Positions 117 to 63,533 of a DNA stretch of 64,000 nt are shown here, piece after piece (position 1 is the stretch's first letter; the number at the start of each line of letters is the position of its first letter). The translations under genes were made by a program, and so were the position numbers. Under the pieces are notes generated by a model. The model was not told the DNA's origin, searched no databases, and saw only the letters and a list, made by a program, of their open reading frames with translations. The stretch is from Paludibacteraceae bacterium (GTDB lineage Bacteria; Bacteroidota; Bacteroidia; Bacteroidales; Paludibacteraceae). The stretch is taken from assembly GCA_024399545.1 (NCBI GenBank), contig JAKSNS010000004.1, positions 1 to 64,000 of the forward strand. The letters are read 5' to 3'.

Positions 117-215
117 GGTTCTATAACGAATTGAGTGAGTTTATTCACTGAATTGGATACTCCCCACCCCCTGCCCCCTCCCCAAGGAGGGGAATACCTT
201 ATAGGTAATGCCTTG

Positions 216-271
216 TTACCCAGGGTTTACACCCTGGGCTGATTTATGTCGCGCCTACAGCGCTTTGAGTT
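216..271. repeat. Two-hairpin dispersed repeat, copy A
   Basis: The first hairpin is CCCAGGGT-TTAC-ACCCTGGG (219-226/231-238) and the second is GCGC-CTACA-GCGC (251-254/260-263), followed by TTTGA. The same architecture, with changed but still paired stems, occurs at 3162-3217 between kdd and kamA. Pairing kept despite base changes suggests the folded form matters. Confidence 0.7.
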
Positions 272-442
272 TGCATACAAAGTTATCACACGAAACATTA
301 TAGAGCCGATAAAGGTCTATAACAAATCAAAAGGGGGAGTGAGGAGAATACACTTCACGCTCATCCTTGGTCAGGTTTGGGTCTATGGCGGTCTCCTCAG
401 ATTACGTAAATATTGATTGCGATTATCCGATGTTGAAAAGGA

Positions 443-1636
443 TCAATACAAAAACCCAAAAGCATAAAGCGGAATTTTATTCCCGTAGGCATACTCAACG
501 TCATCAGCCGCAATAAAACCGTTTTCCACATTGGCAATCTGCTTGCCACCCTTGCTTTTGCCGCCAATCTCTACGGTATATTTGCCATCAATCCTGAAAT
601 CACCTTTACTGCTGTATTCTACACTGTGCTTATACATAAGTTGATTAACAAAAAAAGCTTCCCTCAGAGTACCTGTATTAGGAGCGGCAAGACTCAACAC
701 GTCAGCAATGTTAGTATTCTCAAGATAGATTTTATCAGGTTTCTGCATTTTCTTGAGAGAACTCTCGTCTGAATAAAGAAGGTTGATTAGCCTTGCCCTT
801 TTCAGTGACTGAAGGTAAGACAATACCGTCTGCCTTGAAGTGCCAATCGCAACAGAAAGTTTGGAGATGTCAACCTGCATTGGAACATTTGACGCAAGAA
901 TGGTAAGGAGACTCTTGATTTTACGAATATTCCCAACCTCAACACCGCAATGCAAAGGCAATTCCACCTCAAGAATAAAGTCAATAACCGACTGTAATCT
1001 GGTCTGATAGTCACGTTTGCCTTCCAAGACAAAAGGATAGTAACCATTCTCAAGATAATCATCGAAAAACTCCAAAGGACGGCATTTCTCATTCACCATA
1101 TCGCAAAACTCATCGCCATGGTTAAGCAAATCATCCAACGAGACAGGCTCAATTCTAATGTTCTTGACAAGCCAAAGATACTCTCTGAACGAAAGCCCCT
1201 GCATCTCGTATGGCAGACACCTTCGTGACAAATCAGCATCAGCATTCAGTATGTTGAGGACAGAACTGCCACTCAAAACCAGTTTCAGCTCAGGAAAATT
1301 GTCATAGATTTCCTTGACCTCCCTACTCCAGGTTGGATATTTATGCACCTCGTCCAAAAAGAGATGCTTTCCCCCTCGGACATAAAACTCTTCTGCAAAT
1401 TCAATCAGGGAATGCTGGGTGAAATAACCTCCGTCAAGACTCACATACAAACTTTGTTTATAGTCTATTCCATTGATTTTCAGATATTGCAGCATTAGGG
1501 TCGTCTTACCTATTCCCCTTGCCCCGCGGATAGAAATCAAACGATTGTCCCAATTGATTTCATCCATAATAGACCTAACCATTTTAGTGCTGGTGTGTGC
1601 GATAAGCATTTTGTTGCGTCTAACCAATGACTCCAT
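443..1636 (-). CDS. AAA ATPase with DUF4143-like C-terminal region
   Basis: Predicted 397-residue ATP-binding protein of the orphan AAA_14/DUF4143 type common in Bacteroidota. Visible features are the Walker A motif GARGIGKTT (about residues 38-46), the Walker B motif HLFLDEVH (91-98), a sensor-like LSGSS (about 121-125), a helix-turn-helix-like segment in the middle (VAIGTSRQTVLSYLQSL), and a C-terminal region with an Asp and an EIGGK element that may be a degenerate PD-(D/E)xK fold. A longer reading frame begins at 1663, but a perfect promoter has its -7 box at 1661-1668. A transcript would then start near 1654, so the Met at 1636 is the likely start. Family members' substrates are largely unknown. 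No partner gene is adjacent. Four 33-base repeats lie immediately upstream. Confidence 0.8.
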   Translation of the reverse strand: MESLVRRNKMLIAHTSTKMVRSIMDEINWDNRLISIRGARGIGKTTLMLQYLKINGIDYKQSLYVSLDGGYFTQHSLIEFAEEFYVRGGKHLFLDEVHKYPTWSREVKEIYDNFPELKLVLSGSSVLNILNADADLSRRCLPYEMQGLSFREYLWLVKNIRIEPVSLDDLLNHGDEFCDMVNEKCRPLEFFDDYLENGYYPFVLEGKRDYQTRLQSVIDFILEVELPLHCGVEVGNIRKIKSLLTILASNVPMQVDISKLSVAIGTSRQTVLSYLQSLKRARLINLLYSDESSLKKMQKPDKIYLENTNIADVLSLAAPNTGTLREAFFVNQLMYKHSVEYSSKGDFRIDGKYTVEIGGKSKGGKQIANVENGFIAADDVEYAYGNKIPLYAFGFLY

Positions 1637-1660: not shown

Positions 1661-1692
1661 CAAAGATACAACAAATTGTTAATACCACCAAA
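1661..1692 (-). promoter_or_regulatory. Bacteroidota-type promoter of the AAA ATPase gene
   Basis: On the minus strand, TTTG (1692-1689), 20 bases, then TATCTTTG (1668-1661) is an exact match to the Bacteroidota -33/-7 consensus. The expected start of transcription is about 1654. That moves the ATPase start codon to 1636. The first 33-base repeat covers the spacer and the -33 box. Confidence 0.8.
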
Positions 1693-1796
1693 CATTTCCG
1701 TAAGTTTTTTGTAAAGTCCACCTAACAATTTTACAAGCTATTTGTTAAGTCCACATTACAAATACGAATCCGGTTTGTTAAGTCCACATTACAAAT
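1675..1796. repeat. Four direct repeats with exact 33-base period (iteron/operator-like)
   Basis: Repeat starts fall at 1675, 1708, 1741 and 1774. The last two share 23 identical bases, beginning TTTGTTAAGTCCACATTACA. The second is close to these and the first is degenerate. Each good unit is itself an imperfect inverted repeat (TTTGTTAA...TTACAAA). The array sits directly upstream of, and overlaps, the ATPase promoter, as expected for operator sites or iterons. The units abut without spacers. Confidence 0.8.
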
Positions 1797-1805
1797 TGAG
1801 GACAT

Positions 1806-1834
1806 AAAAAAGGCAGCCGAAATCGGCTGCCCCC
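1806..1834 (-). terminator. Rho-independent terminator of the lysine operon
   Basis: On the minus strand GGCAGCCGA and TCGGCTGCC form a 9-bp stem with a 2-base loop (1812-1820/1823-1831), followed by a run of T residues (plus-strand A run, 1806-1811). It lies 30 bases past the kamA stop codon. Confidence 0.9.
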
Positions 1835-1861: not shown

Positions 1862-3100
1862 TTATTTCTTATTACGCTCGTGACGTTCCAGGTCTGCTGG
1901 CTCGATTGAGAGCTGCTTGCCCGCAAGGAGTTTCTCAACACCCTCATACTTGCGGTTCTCGCAATCTGGGCAATGGCACTCTTCCTTGTAGTCTGTAGGC
2001 TCGGTATAGGTAGTGATTACACCCTCGTAGTTACGCAAAATCACACGGTTAGGCGACTGCGAAATAACGTAGTTTGGCATGACTGGAGTCTTGCCGCCAC
2101 CGCCGGGAGCATCCACAACGAATGTTGGCACACAATAGCCGGAGGTGTGACCACGAAGAGCCTCGATAATCTCGATACCCTTTGATACCGGCGTACGGAA
2201 ATGCTCGATACCCATTGAAAGGTCGCACTGGTAGATATAATAAGGACGCACACGAATCTTGACAAGCCCCTGAACGAGCTTCTTCATTATATGTGTGCAG
2301 TCGTTGATGCCACGAAGAAGCACTGTCTGGTTGCCCAATGGAATACCTGCGTCTGCAAGGCGTGCACATGCTGCTGCCGACTCCTCGGTAATCTCCTGTG
2401 GGTGGTTAAAATGCGTGTTCAACCAGAATGGGTGGTACTTCTTGAGCATGTTGCAGAGCTCAGGCGTGATACGCTGAGGGCAAACCACAGGGGTACGTGA
2501 GCCAAGGCGGATAACCTCCACATGAGGAATGGCACGGAGTTTCTTGATGATATACTCAAGACGGTCGTCTGACACCATAAGAGCGTCACCACCCGAAAGA
2601 AGCACGTCGCGAACCTGTGGCGTGCGTGCTATATACTCGATACCCTTCTCAATGTTGTCCATTGGATTGTCAGCATCCTTCTGACCTGCGAAACGACGGC
2701 GGGTGCAGTGACGGCAATACATTGAACACATGTCAGTGATGAGCAAGAGCACACGGTCTGGATAACGGTGCGTAAGTCCGGGAACAGGAGAGTCAGAGTC
2801 CTCGTGAAGTGGGTCGAGAAGGTCTGCCTCTGCACGGTGCAACTCCTTGATGGTAGGGATGCACTGTTTGCGGACAGGGTCGTGTGGATTATTCTGGTCG
2901 ATGAGTGAGAGGTAGTATGGGGTGATAGCCATACGGAGGGATTTCAGCGACTCGCGGACACCCTCTTCCTCCTCAGCGGTCAGTTTGATGTATTTCTTGA
3001 GGTCTTCCAATGTCTCAATGCGGTTGCGCACCTGCCAATGCCAGTCATTCCACTGCTCGTCAGTGACATTTGGAAAAAGTTGTTTTCTGTTAGATGCCAT
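1862..3100 (-). CDS. kamA: Lysine 2,3-aminomutase
   Basis: Radical-SAM, PLP-dependent enzyme converting L-lysine to L-beta-lysine, the first step of anaerobic lysine fermentation. At 412 residues it is close to the characterised clostridial enzyme. The radical-SAM cluster CSMYCRHC has Cys at 125, 129 and 132. The PLP lysine lies in PGGGGK at residue 337, the same number as in the well-studied Clostridium enzyme. It is the last gene of the atoD-kal-kce-kdd-kamA operon although it acts first. It is separated from kdd by 131 bases that hold several hairpins, and followed by a strong terminator. The family also includes EpmB-like and other aminomutases, but the length and the neighbours favour true KamA. 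Confidence 0.96.
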   Translation of the reverse strand: MASNRKQLFPNVTDEQWNDWHWQVRNRIETLEDLKKYIKLTAEEEEGVRESLKSLRMAITPYYLSLIDQNNPHDPVRKQCIPTIKELHRAEADLLDPLHEDSDSPVPGLTHRYPDRVLLLITDMCSMYCRHCTRRRFAGQKDADNPMDNIEKGIEYIARTPQVRDVLLSGGDALMVSDDRLEYIIKKLRAIPHVEVIRLGSRTPVVCPQRITPELCNMLKKYHPFWLNTHFNHPQEITEESAAACARLADAGIPLGNQTVLLRGINDCTHIMKKLVQGLVKIRVRPYYIYQCDLSMGIEHFRTPVSKGIEIIEALRGHTSGYCVPTFVVDAPGGGGKTPVMPNYVISQSPNRVILRNYEGVITTYTEPTDYKEECHCPDCENRKYEGVEKLLAGKQLSIEPADLERHERNKK

Positions 3101-3231: not shown

Positions 3232-4305
3232 TTATGCGTACAACTCCTCGAAAATCTTGCGGAGTTTCTCGCTCTCGCGGAGTTCCTGAAGAGTGAACTC
3301 AGCGTGACCCTTGGTGTAGCCGTTACCCATAATCATGTTAACGTCAGCACCGATACCTTCAGCACCGAGTGAAGCCTTGGTGAAGCTGGTAGCCATTGAG
3401 AAGAAATATACAACGCCGTCATCCTTCGTGCAGAGGATTGCGGTCATCTCCTGGTCAGGAACGTTGACGCAGTTGATTGTAACGTCAGCCATCTTGCCGT
3501 TGGTAAGTTTGCTTACCAGTTCATAAATCTCGGCAGGAGTTTTGCCTGCAACAGACTCTACAACATCGCAGAAACCAAGTTCCTTGATACGGTTTGTAGA
3601 TTTTGGAGAGTTGGCAAGACCGATAACCTTACCCGTTACGCCTACGCGTTTCTTAGCCTCGTAGCAGCAAAGCATACCCGATTTGCCACCGGCACCGAGG
3701 ATGACAACATTCTGACCATACTGGCAGAGTTTTGCGGTCTGTGCAGGAGCACCTGCAACGTCCAGTGCAGAGAGTGCAAGTTTCTCAGGCATGTCAGTAG
3801 GGATTTTGGCATAGATACCGCTCTCGAAGAGGATAGCCTTACCCTTTATATCTACTTGGTCAATCTCAGGACGGATTTCGAGAATCTCGTCAATGCGGAG
3901 TGGAGTCAACGACAAAGAAACGAGAGTAGCGATGCGGTCGCCCTCCTTGAGGTCGATTTTGCCTTTGAGGGCATCACCTATCTTCTCAACCTTACCGAGA
4001 AGCATACCACCAGAACCTGTACGGCGGTTGCGGTGTTTACCCTGAAGCTCTACGTTGAGGAGCATCTCTTTCTTAATCTCTTCCATGACTTTCTCAACTG
4101 GAGCACCCTCGCCAGCCTGCTGTTTGGCATAGTTGTGAATGTCAGTGAAAGAAGCAGAGTCAATATTAAGGGTCTGAACGTCAATGAGAATTTCGTTATC
4201 CCAAATTTCGTCCATGTTGTTGTTGAGTTTGTTTGCTGGCTGTGGAAGTACGCCAAGTGGTTCGATTACACGGTGAGTACCGAATCTATTACCATGTTTT
4301 TGCAT
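3232..4305 (-). CDS. kdd: L-erythro-3,5-diaminohexanoate dehydrogenase
   Basis: NAD(P)-dependent oxidative deamination of 3,5-diaminohexanoate to 3-keto-5-aminohexanoate, the third step of lysine fermentation. The 357-residue protein begins with the family-typical stretch around RFGTHRVIEP (residues 7-16). It has a GroES-like N-terminal half and a Rossmann dinucleotide loop GAGGKSG (204-210). It lies 25 bases downstream of kce on the same strand. Its substrate must come from lysine 5,6-aminomutase (KamDE), whose genes are not in this window. Confidence 0.93.
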   Translation of the reverse strand: MQKHGNRFGTHRVIEPLGVLPQPANKLNNNMDEIWDNEILIDVQTLNIDSASFTDIHNYAKQQAGEGAPVEKVMEEIKKEMLLNVELQGKHRNRRTGSGGMLLGKVEKIGDALKGKIDLKEGDRIATLVSLSLTPLRIDEILEIRPEIDQVDIKGKAILFESGIYAKIPTDMPEKLALSALDVAGAPAQTAKLCQYGQNVVILGAGGKSGMLCCYEAKKRVGVTGKVIGLANSPKSTNRIKELGFCDVVESVAGKTPAEIYELVSKLTNGKMADVTINCVNVPDQEMTAILCTKDDGVVYFFSMATSFTKASLGAEGIGADVNMIMGNGYTKGHAEFTLQELRESEKLRKIFEELYA

Positions 4306-21625: not shown

Positions 21626-21713
21626 AACGATAGATTAACGATACATTAACGATAGATTAACGATACATTAACGATACATTAACGATAGATTAACGATAGA
21701 TTAACGATAGATT
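21626..21713. repeat. Eight tandem copies of an 11-base unit
   Basis: Eight exact-length units AACGATA(G/C)ATT run from 21626 to 21713. The seventh-to-eighth position of the unit alternates between two forms (G C G C C G G G in order). The array fills the gap between the thiL stop and the rpiB start. The unit length is close to one helical turn. Confidence 0.95.
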
Positions 21714-28511: not shown

Positions 28512-28650
28512 GAATTTATTCAACGCAAAGAGCTTGCTCATTTGCTGAGGCGCAGCGCATTTTATCTAAAATAGACAACAAGATGAGTAAAAGCGGAACA
28601 AGTAAAAAATACATATTTGTACCAAGTTATTATTTTATCATCACTAAGGA

Positions 28651-28714
28651 GAACAGATGTGTTAGCATGATGGTTTTTTCGGAAACTCAAAAGCCATGCA
28701 AAATATGTCTTTGT
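28651..28714 (+). repeat. 64-base direct repeat with internal hairpin, copy 1
   Basis: It begins GAACAGATGTGTTAGCATGA. The internal stem ATGGTTTT/AAAAGCCAT keeps pairing through a G-T wobble relative to copy 2. Copy 2 lies 371 bases downstream. The two flank the MITE-like element. Confidence 0.8.
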
Positions 28715-28783
28715 CCTGACTTCGGGAATGCGTCACCAAAAATATGTTTTACGGGTCGGAAAGAGTAAGACATATAAAAACCT

Positions 28784-28994
28784 ACCCCCAACTTTTTAGG
28801 TGAAATTATTGAAATTATTGAAATCGCATGCAAGCCGAAACCTCAAATGCGCACATAAATGTACACACAAACTCACAACACAAAAGAGCAAGCAAAGAGC
28901 AAGCCCTACCGTACCATAAAAAACAGAAAATCGTATAATGACTTCTCAAACGATTTCAATAATTTCAATAATTTCACCTGAAAAGTTGGAGGGT
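28784..28994. mobile_element. MITE-like element, copy 1 (short form)
   Basis: Inverted repeats of about 40 bases (28788-28826 and 28951-28990) contain AATTATTGAAATTATTGAAAT and its complement. They enclose about 125 bases with no coding capacity. The interior (about 28859-28931) is the reverse complement of 63268-63347. Relative to the 63 kb copy this one lacks roughly 90 bases next to the left arm. No transposase is present and target-site duplications were not evident. Confidence 0.75.
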
Positions 28995-29021
28995 GGTTTT
29001 TCCTCCTGTTTTATCCTTTCA

Positions 29022-29085
29022 GAACAGATGTGTTAGCATGATGGCTTTTTCGGGAACTCAAAAGCCATGCAAAATGTGTCTTTAT
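29022..29085 (+). repeat. 64-base direct repeat with internal hairpin, copy 2
   Basis: Near-identical to 28651-28714. Here the stem is a perfect ATGGCTTTT/AAAAGCCAT. Confidence 0.8.
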
Positions 29086-29216
29086 GTTGCAATGCTTAGA
29101 CATAGCTTCCGCCCTGCCCTATACTTTTTCGCTCTTGCAGAGCTTATTTGAATCTGTACTAACAGGTTACTAATAACACTATCCACTCAAAAAGTTATAG
29201 AGCCGAAACTTTATTT

Positions 29217-63171: not shown

Positions 63172-63204
63172 TCATTATGACTAAACAAGAGGAAAAATCA
63201 CTTC

Positions 63205-63506
63205 ATACCCCCCCCAAGTTTTTAGGTGAAATTATTGAAATTATTGAAATCGGCATAATGCCTTTATGAGGATTTTTCTGTTTTTTATGGTACGGTAGGG
63301 CTTGCTCTTTTCTTGCTCTTTAGTGTTGTGAGTTTATGTGCACATTTGTACGTGTATTTGAGGCTATGCCTCAAATGGCGACTACACCTCAGCCGAGCGC
63401 AAGCTGACGTTTGAAAATCAACAACCTTTTTGAGTTAGCACTGCTTTCGGCGTGCAAGCGATTTCAATAATTTCAATAATTTCACCTGAAAAGTTGGGGG
63501 TAGGTT
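63205..63506. mobile_element. MITE-like element, copy 2 (long form, inverted)
   Basis: Inverted repeats of about 40 bases (63213-63252 and 63459-63500) match those at 28.8-29.0 kb. The interior is the reverse complement of copy 1 plus about 90 additional bases (about 63365-63450), including TGAGGCTATGCCTCA, a small palindrome. The flank CATTCCCGAAGTCAGG (63512-63527) also matches copy 1 (28715-28730), so the repeat unit extends beyond the arms. Confidence 0.75.
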
Positions 63507-63533
63507 TTTATCATTCCCGAAGTCAGGAAACAA

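Follow-up and report, generated by a model that had tools for sequence, protein, structure and literature searches.

A promoter-overlapping array of palindromes as the proposed private operator of an AAA_14/DUF4143 ATPase gene

The first 64,000 nucleotides of contig JAKSNS010000004.1 from a Paludibacteraceae bacterium (assembly GCA_024399545.1; hereafter, the window, meaning this whole stretch) contain an array of direct repeats immediately upstream of a minus-strand gene for an ATPase of the AAA_14/DUF4143 family, raising the question of which protein reads these repeats and with what consequence for the gene behind them. Members of this family occur in large numbers in bacteria and archaea, and no function has been established for them. 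We propose, with a probability of about 0.8, that the array is a private operator, bound by the adjoining ATPase and controlling its own promoter, with the specificities of the different paralogues insulated from one another. The evidence is comparative throughout; many of the genomes are metagenome assemblies, and the homologues come mainly from Bacteroidota.

The initial annotation of the window described four repeats spaced by 33 bases, two of them with 23 bases in common, composed of imperfect palindromes and with the first unit lying on the -33 box and spacer of the promoter. Reading of the sequence confirms this description: four direct repeats begin at 1675, 1708, 1741 and 1774, exactly 33 bases from start to start, and the last two are identical over 23 bases (1741-1763 and 1774-1796). 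On the gene's strand, each unit is an 18-bp palindrome made of a 6-base arm, a 6-base centre and a second 6-base arm. The palindrome-chain score, which rates successive 18-bp palindromes spaced 32-34 bp apart, reaches 24 for the window array, and none of 60 shuffles exceeds 12 (z = 11); repeat finders at default settings missed the array because the arms are short. The sequence TTTGTTAAGTCCACATTACAAA has two matches in the window at up to 3 mismatches, with a chance expectation of 0, and the unit core TGTNAAGTCCAC has three in the entire 2.3 Mb genome, every one of them within the array. Units 1 and 2 share a 33-bp segment that is absent from an 88% identical orthologue (L035), so this segment was probably duplicated recently. 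Twenty bases separate the -33 box from the -7 box, and unit 4 (1694-1677) overlies the -33 box and most of this spacer. A TTG start at 1663, taken from the open reading frame list, falls within the -7 box, leaving the ATG at 1636 as the likely start of the ATPase. The array and promoter features are as follows.

1675-1796, minus strand: array of four units at 33-bp spacing, upstream of the ATPase gene (sequence, genome search, chain score)
1776-1793, minus strand: unit 1, distal, TGTAAT-gtggac-TTAACA (palindrome chain)
1743-1760, minus strand: unit 2, TGTAAT-gtggac-TTAACA (palindrome chain)
1710-1727, minus strand: unit 3, TGTTAG-gtggac-TTTACA (palindrome chain)
1677-1694, minus strand: unit 4, promoter-proximal, TGTTTG-gtggta-TTAACA (sequence, palindrome chain)
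1689-1692, minus strand: -33 box TTTG of a Bacteroidota-type promoter (sequence)
1661-1668, minus strand: -7 box TATCTTTG (sequence)

Such arrays recur across the family. The genome has 27 AAA_14 places above the Pfam cut-off, and many of their upstream regions hold tandem arrays whose unit sequence is particular to each, for instance repeats of TAAATCGTGAATTTGGGAGAGT (L012), CCGAAAAGTTGCGGAGTGAAACG (L018) and GACTCTTTAATTTTTGTCAT (L016); the unit of L018, the second paralogue checked genome-wide besides the window ATPase, is confined to its own array. Using one simple tandem-periodicity score on the 320 nt upstream, with a threshold of at least 16, we detect an array at 45 of 86 AAA_14 genes in a first set and at 15 of 435 control genes drawn from 20 stretches of genome. 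Four of these 15 are AAA_14 arrays picked up through an adjacent reading frame; the remainder are mostly a dispersed 11-mer repeat or low-complexity sequence. Among the 89 genes of a second set, taken from further genera in the family, 58 have an array, as against 3 of 267 shuffles; its neighbouring-gene controls are contaminated by AAA_14 arrays, and the first-set controls are therefore used instead. After clustering at 70% identity, 133 of 216 non-redundant homologues (62%) carry an array, compared with about 3% of other genes. Downstream of AAA_14 genes arrays are far rarer (21/204, several owned by neighbouring AAA_14 genes), and none was found within the genes themselves (0/204). The arrangement probably extends beyond Bacteroidota, judging from two Campylobacterota homologues on Aliarcobacter plasmids (L324 and L325), which have a pair of palindromic units at 34-bp spacing immediately before the start. 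The expectation of a shared upstream array thus holds for the architecture, which is enriched upstream of homologues, and fails for the unit, which differs from paralogue to paralogue. A single conserved unit common to the homologues was accordingly rejected, spacing and architecture being what is kept; since each paralogue has its own unit, the proposed search for TTTGTTAAGTCCACATTACA would have failed, though the idea behind it was right.

The spacing follows the turns of the DNA helix. The 120 non-redundant arrays with a score of 18 or more have a period of 32-34 in 79 cases, 21-23 in 13, 40-42 in 11, 51-54 in six and 64-66 in six, with single arrays at 16, 18, 27, 47 and 62. Phase coherence across these arrays is R = 0.77 at a helical repeat of 10.3-10.5 bp and about 0.5 without the three-turn class, so that the placing of the sites on one DNA face, suggested for the window array, holds family-wide. 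Of the 101 arrays with an identified -7 box, 72 overlap the region from -33 to -7 and a further 20 lie just upstream of it. The close subfamily was assembled from 80 loci found by scanning bacterial and archaeal genomes, with members from the window's genus added. Palindrome chains beat all 60 shuffles at 74 of 91 loci, and 126 of 162 spacings are exactly 33. Here the 6-6-6 palindrome at 33 bp persists while the arms vary (TGTTAA, TGTTTT, TGCTTT, TGCTGT, TGTATA, CGGTTA, CGCTTA and others). The nearest named orthologue, L125, comes from a Candidatus Minthenecus merdequi assembly and is 89% identical.

Could the ATPase itself read these sites? Only AAA_14 (93.6 bits; cut-off 27) and DUF4143 (30.8 bits; cut-off 28.1) exceed their Pfam cut-offs in the window protein, and the PADLOC models for PDC-S01 match residues 39-358 with a best E of 3.1e-28. 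In the AlphaFold model (pLDDT, the predicted local distance difference test score, 91.5), helix 268-280 is the recognition helix of a winged helix-turn-helix. Foldseek places Cdc6/Orc1 on origin DNA (2qby) at the top, and over the AAA+ and winged-helix parts the closest solved folds are the archaeal AAA+ ATPases SSO1545 (2fna, Z 15.7) and PABY2304 (2qen, Z 15.6) and the CED-4/NLR proteins (Z about 15). Taken alone, the C-terminal domain weakly resembles PD-(D/E)XK nucleases, its matches being Hjc, tRNA splicing endonuclease and Bax1 with Z at most 4.9, and its residues D346, D350, E356, K362 and Q366 are invariant or nearly so. A sequence search of the window protein against solved structures returned nothing meaningful, and its comparison with PHROGs gave no convincing match. 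The gene and its domains are laid out as follows.

443-1636, minus strand: AAA_14/DUF4143 ATPase gene, 397 amino acids from the ATG at 1636, PDC-S01 in PADLOC (Pfam, PADLOC, AlphaFold)
1175-1546, minus strand: AAA_14 ATPase domain with Walker A motif GARGIGKT (Pfam)
776-937, minus strand: winged helix-turn-helix, residues 234-287 (AlphaFold)
797-835, minus strand: recognition helix, residues 268-280; half-site positions 1 and 3 vary together with residues 268, 269 and 272 (AlphaFold, covariation)
446-787, minus strand: C-terminal PD-(D/E)XK-like domain, residues 284-397 (conservation, structure matches)

Across 77 close homologues, with half-site letters taken from the DNA alone, the variation of the sites follows this helix. 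For half-site position 1 (T versus C or A), column 268 ranks first among 327 variable columns, R going with T and K with C or A; this column had been hidden by a reduced residue alphabet, and the mutual information was therefore rerun on plain residues. For position 3 (C versus T) in the TG set, columns 272 and 269 rank first and third of 333: arrays with C have N269 in 14 of 14 cases and V or I272 in 13 of 14, and arrays with T have L272 in 33 of 35. In a sliding-window comparison with overall protein similarity removed, the 12 highest-ranking of 385 protein windows all lie within residues 256-279, where r reaches 0.44; the background has mean 0.01 and standard deviation 0.13, and the best value outside that segment is 0.24. 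Limited to the TG set, the best windows fall at residues 260-284. In a tree made from the protein with the helix left out, there are 8 changes at position 3. A small further set of homologues mostly keeps the pairing of residue and half-site, with exceptions among distant relatives. Judged from these alignments, site specificity tracks the ATPase's own DNA-binding domain, giving comparative backing to the earlier suggestion that a helix-turn-helix-like segment of the ATPase might recognize its own array.

As a plausible mechanism, the ATPase, with its AAA+, winged helix-turn-helix and PD-(D/E)XK-like domains, would bind each 18-bp palindrome through the winged helix, probably as a dimer. Because the sites are whole helical turns apart, the bound proteins would share a single DNA face and could assemble there through their AAA+ domains; physical binding, dimers and filaments are inferred. 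The array, its enrichment, phasing, promoter overlap and covariation with the own helix are established by comparison. At the window locus, bound protein would mask the -33 region and spacer, so that autorepression of the gene is the most likely outcome, and release may come from the ATP state, the oligomer state or a trigger. With 72 of 101 arrays overlapping the core promoter, repression is more likely than activation. Recognition helix and sites would have changed together in each paralogue, thereby insulating about two dozen paralogues in one cell. The initial annotation had left the choice between a multi-site operator and an iteron array; enrichment, phasing and covariation support the operator, and an iteron, taken strictly as a replication origin, finds no support.

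Several observations count against a private operator read by its own ATPase. At the threshold used, about 38% of homologues have no array, and arrays also exist with no gene beside them. In nine of 101 arrays the sites come after the -7 box, and repression there would have to act as a roadblock. R268 changes only once on the tree, and the four well-supported independent pairs that position 3 provides, nearly all concordant or neutral, are too few for a significant sign test.

The gene-less arrays bring in an account in which a single-gene mobile cassette, encoding the ATPase with its PD-(D/E)XK-like domain, uses the array chiefly as its address or end sequence, and promoter control is a by-product. 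Flank-to-flank repeats, nearly all direct, surround 56 of 211 AAA_14 genes and 5 of 260 control genes, and at three loci (L145, L222, L247) units of the gene's own array stand on both sides of it. At L145, three units of one palindrome lie on each side of the ATPase gene (2845-2928 and 4201-4284), the downstream ones beginning over the stop codon and adjoining a convergent ligA; at L222, the gene sits between direct repeats of about 130 bp that hold its array (1171-1300 and 2804-2933, 90% identical). The L247 site shows the gene bracketed by its own array units in G051, G072 and G090, while near-identical or related genomes without the gene retain a bare array: G089, with flanks 97-99% identical, has the two units once, and G085 and G084 have a bare array at 33-bp spacing. 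By locus, the AAA_14 gene is missing from the syntenic L332, L335 and L336, where 2 or 4 bare units remain at 33-bp spacing. By exact search in the genus, the L247 units occur at that site alone save for an isolated match in G086, which as a lone match was rejected as a further array. Loss through recombination of array copies and insertion into an array both fit L247, however, and such loss accounts for the empty site just as well; own-unit copies stand downstream in just about 4-8 of 111 arrays; and the direct repeats include dispersed ones. At L248, for example, the repeat belongs to a dispersed element that also occurs as several solo copies, other flank repeats likewise resemble dispersed repeats, and long target-site duplications were not accepted as a general rule. 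We judge a mainly mobile role decidedly unlikely. A broader version, in which AAA_14/DUF4143 genes are self-addressed single-gene cassettes and the ATPase with its PD-(D/E)XK-like domain would use the private array both as operator and as entry and exit address, leaving bare arrays and duplicated flanks, seems to us less improbable, if still doubtful. AAA_14 loci may be gain/loss cassettes, and the bare arrays and bracketed genes of the L247 type, which are the basis of the cassette reading and not of the operator proposal, suggest that members of the family are gained and lost over time, as would be expected of defence genes.

Other accounts leave the ATPase out of the reading altogether. Ordinary repressors typically use promoter-overlapping palindromes, and a separate regulator could read the arrays with the ATPase merely as its target; yet the unit differs per paralogue, so that dozens of additional regulators would be required, and the ATPase's own recognition helix predicts the half-site letters better than the rest of the protein does, making this account very improbable. 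We give hardly any credence to units working as RNA hairpins or leader elements: palindromes are able to form hairpins and nine of the 101 arrays lie in the 5' untranslated region, but most arrays, the window's included, are at or upstream of the promoter and thus outside the gene's transcript, the spacings match DNA helical turns, and no Rfam family reaches its gathering score over the window array. Equally remote is the notion of neutral minisatellites produced by replication slippage. Unit number does change by full 33-bp increments, one case being the window array against that of L035, but arrays are concentrated upstream of the AAA_14 family, co-vary with the protein, and keep arms and spacing while the letters change. 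A relation to the BrickBuilt minisatellite elements of Porphyromonas, which have 23-nt repeats, was also weighed; the paper describing them mentions no ATPase (PMC4596501).

Known systems resemble the proposed operator in part. In plasmid iterons, helically spaced direct repeats stand beside the gene of a DNA-binding protein that is often autoregulated. The window array shares the direct repeats at helical spacing beside a gene, but the ATPase has no Rep-family domain in the Pfam scan and is chromosomal, and AAA_14 arrays have palindromic units and many orthogonal copies per genome. SSO1545, PABY2304 and the STAND/NLR proteins (CED-4) are alike in fold over the AAA+ and winged-helix parts; the winged helix of NLR proteins is not known to read DNA, whereas the recognition helix of the window ATPase co-varies with DNA. 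In haloarchaea, origins adjacent to Orc1/Cdc6 genes carry paralogue-specific origin recognition boxes (PMC3528665, PMC3936714). Shared with these are an AAA+ domain followed by a winged helix, repeated sites beside the own gene and a specificity that differs among paralogues; the window protein, in contrast, exceeds no Orc/Cdc6 Pfam cut-off and has an extra PD-(D/E)XK-like domain, and its sites are on a promoter with strict helical spacing. PDC-S01, an ATPase fused to a PD-(D/E)XK domain, is described as the fourth most common defence system across prokaryotes, with validation pending for most candidates of its kind (PMC12988326). The window protein matches the PADLOC profiles, has what looks like the same domain build, and belongs with these candidate phage-defence proteins; in the literature searched we found no description of upstream arrays or self-recognition in AAA_14/DUF4143 (PDC-S01) proteins.

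A private, readable DNA address for each AAA_14/DUF4143 protein would make binding, promoter control and the trigger testable on known sites. The pairs of recognition helix and half-site look like the beginnings of a specificity code, diversified many times within single genomes, and could be useful toward orthogonal regulators in Bacteroidota.

On its far side, the array is preceded by a lysine 2,3-aminomutase-like gene (1862-3100), a neighbour seen within the genus only in G000 and G002. The hairpin terminator of this gene also precedes the array, which therefore belongs to the ATPase gene.

1806-1834, minus strand: intrinsic terminator of the lysine 2,3-aminomutase-like gene (sequence)

Just downstream of the ATPase gene lies a dispersed repeat of about 195 bp (window 117-312), full or partial copies of which stand beside four further AAA_14 paralogues (L003, L007, L019, L025); these four fall in about 97 kb of AAA_14 loci, whereas 394 kb of control stretches hold two partial copies. 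Elsewhere in the window, a tandem 11-bp repeat, TTAACGATA(G/C)A, occupies 21626-21713. Its three-unit pattern has 128 matches in the genome, at many loci, both ahead of unrelated genes and at several contig ends, and the repeat is a dispersed minisatellite of one helical turn. Two copies of a complex repeat element (28600-29200 and 63180-63511) contain abundant short direct and inverted repeats, and many more copies of it occur genome-wide.
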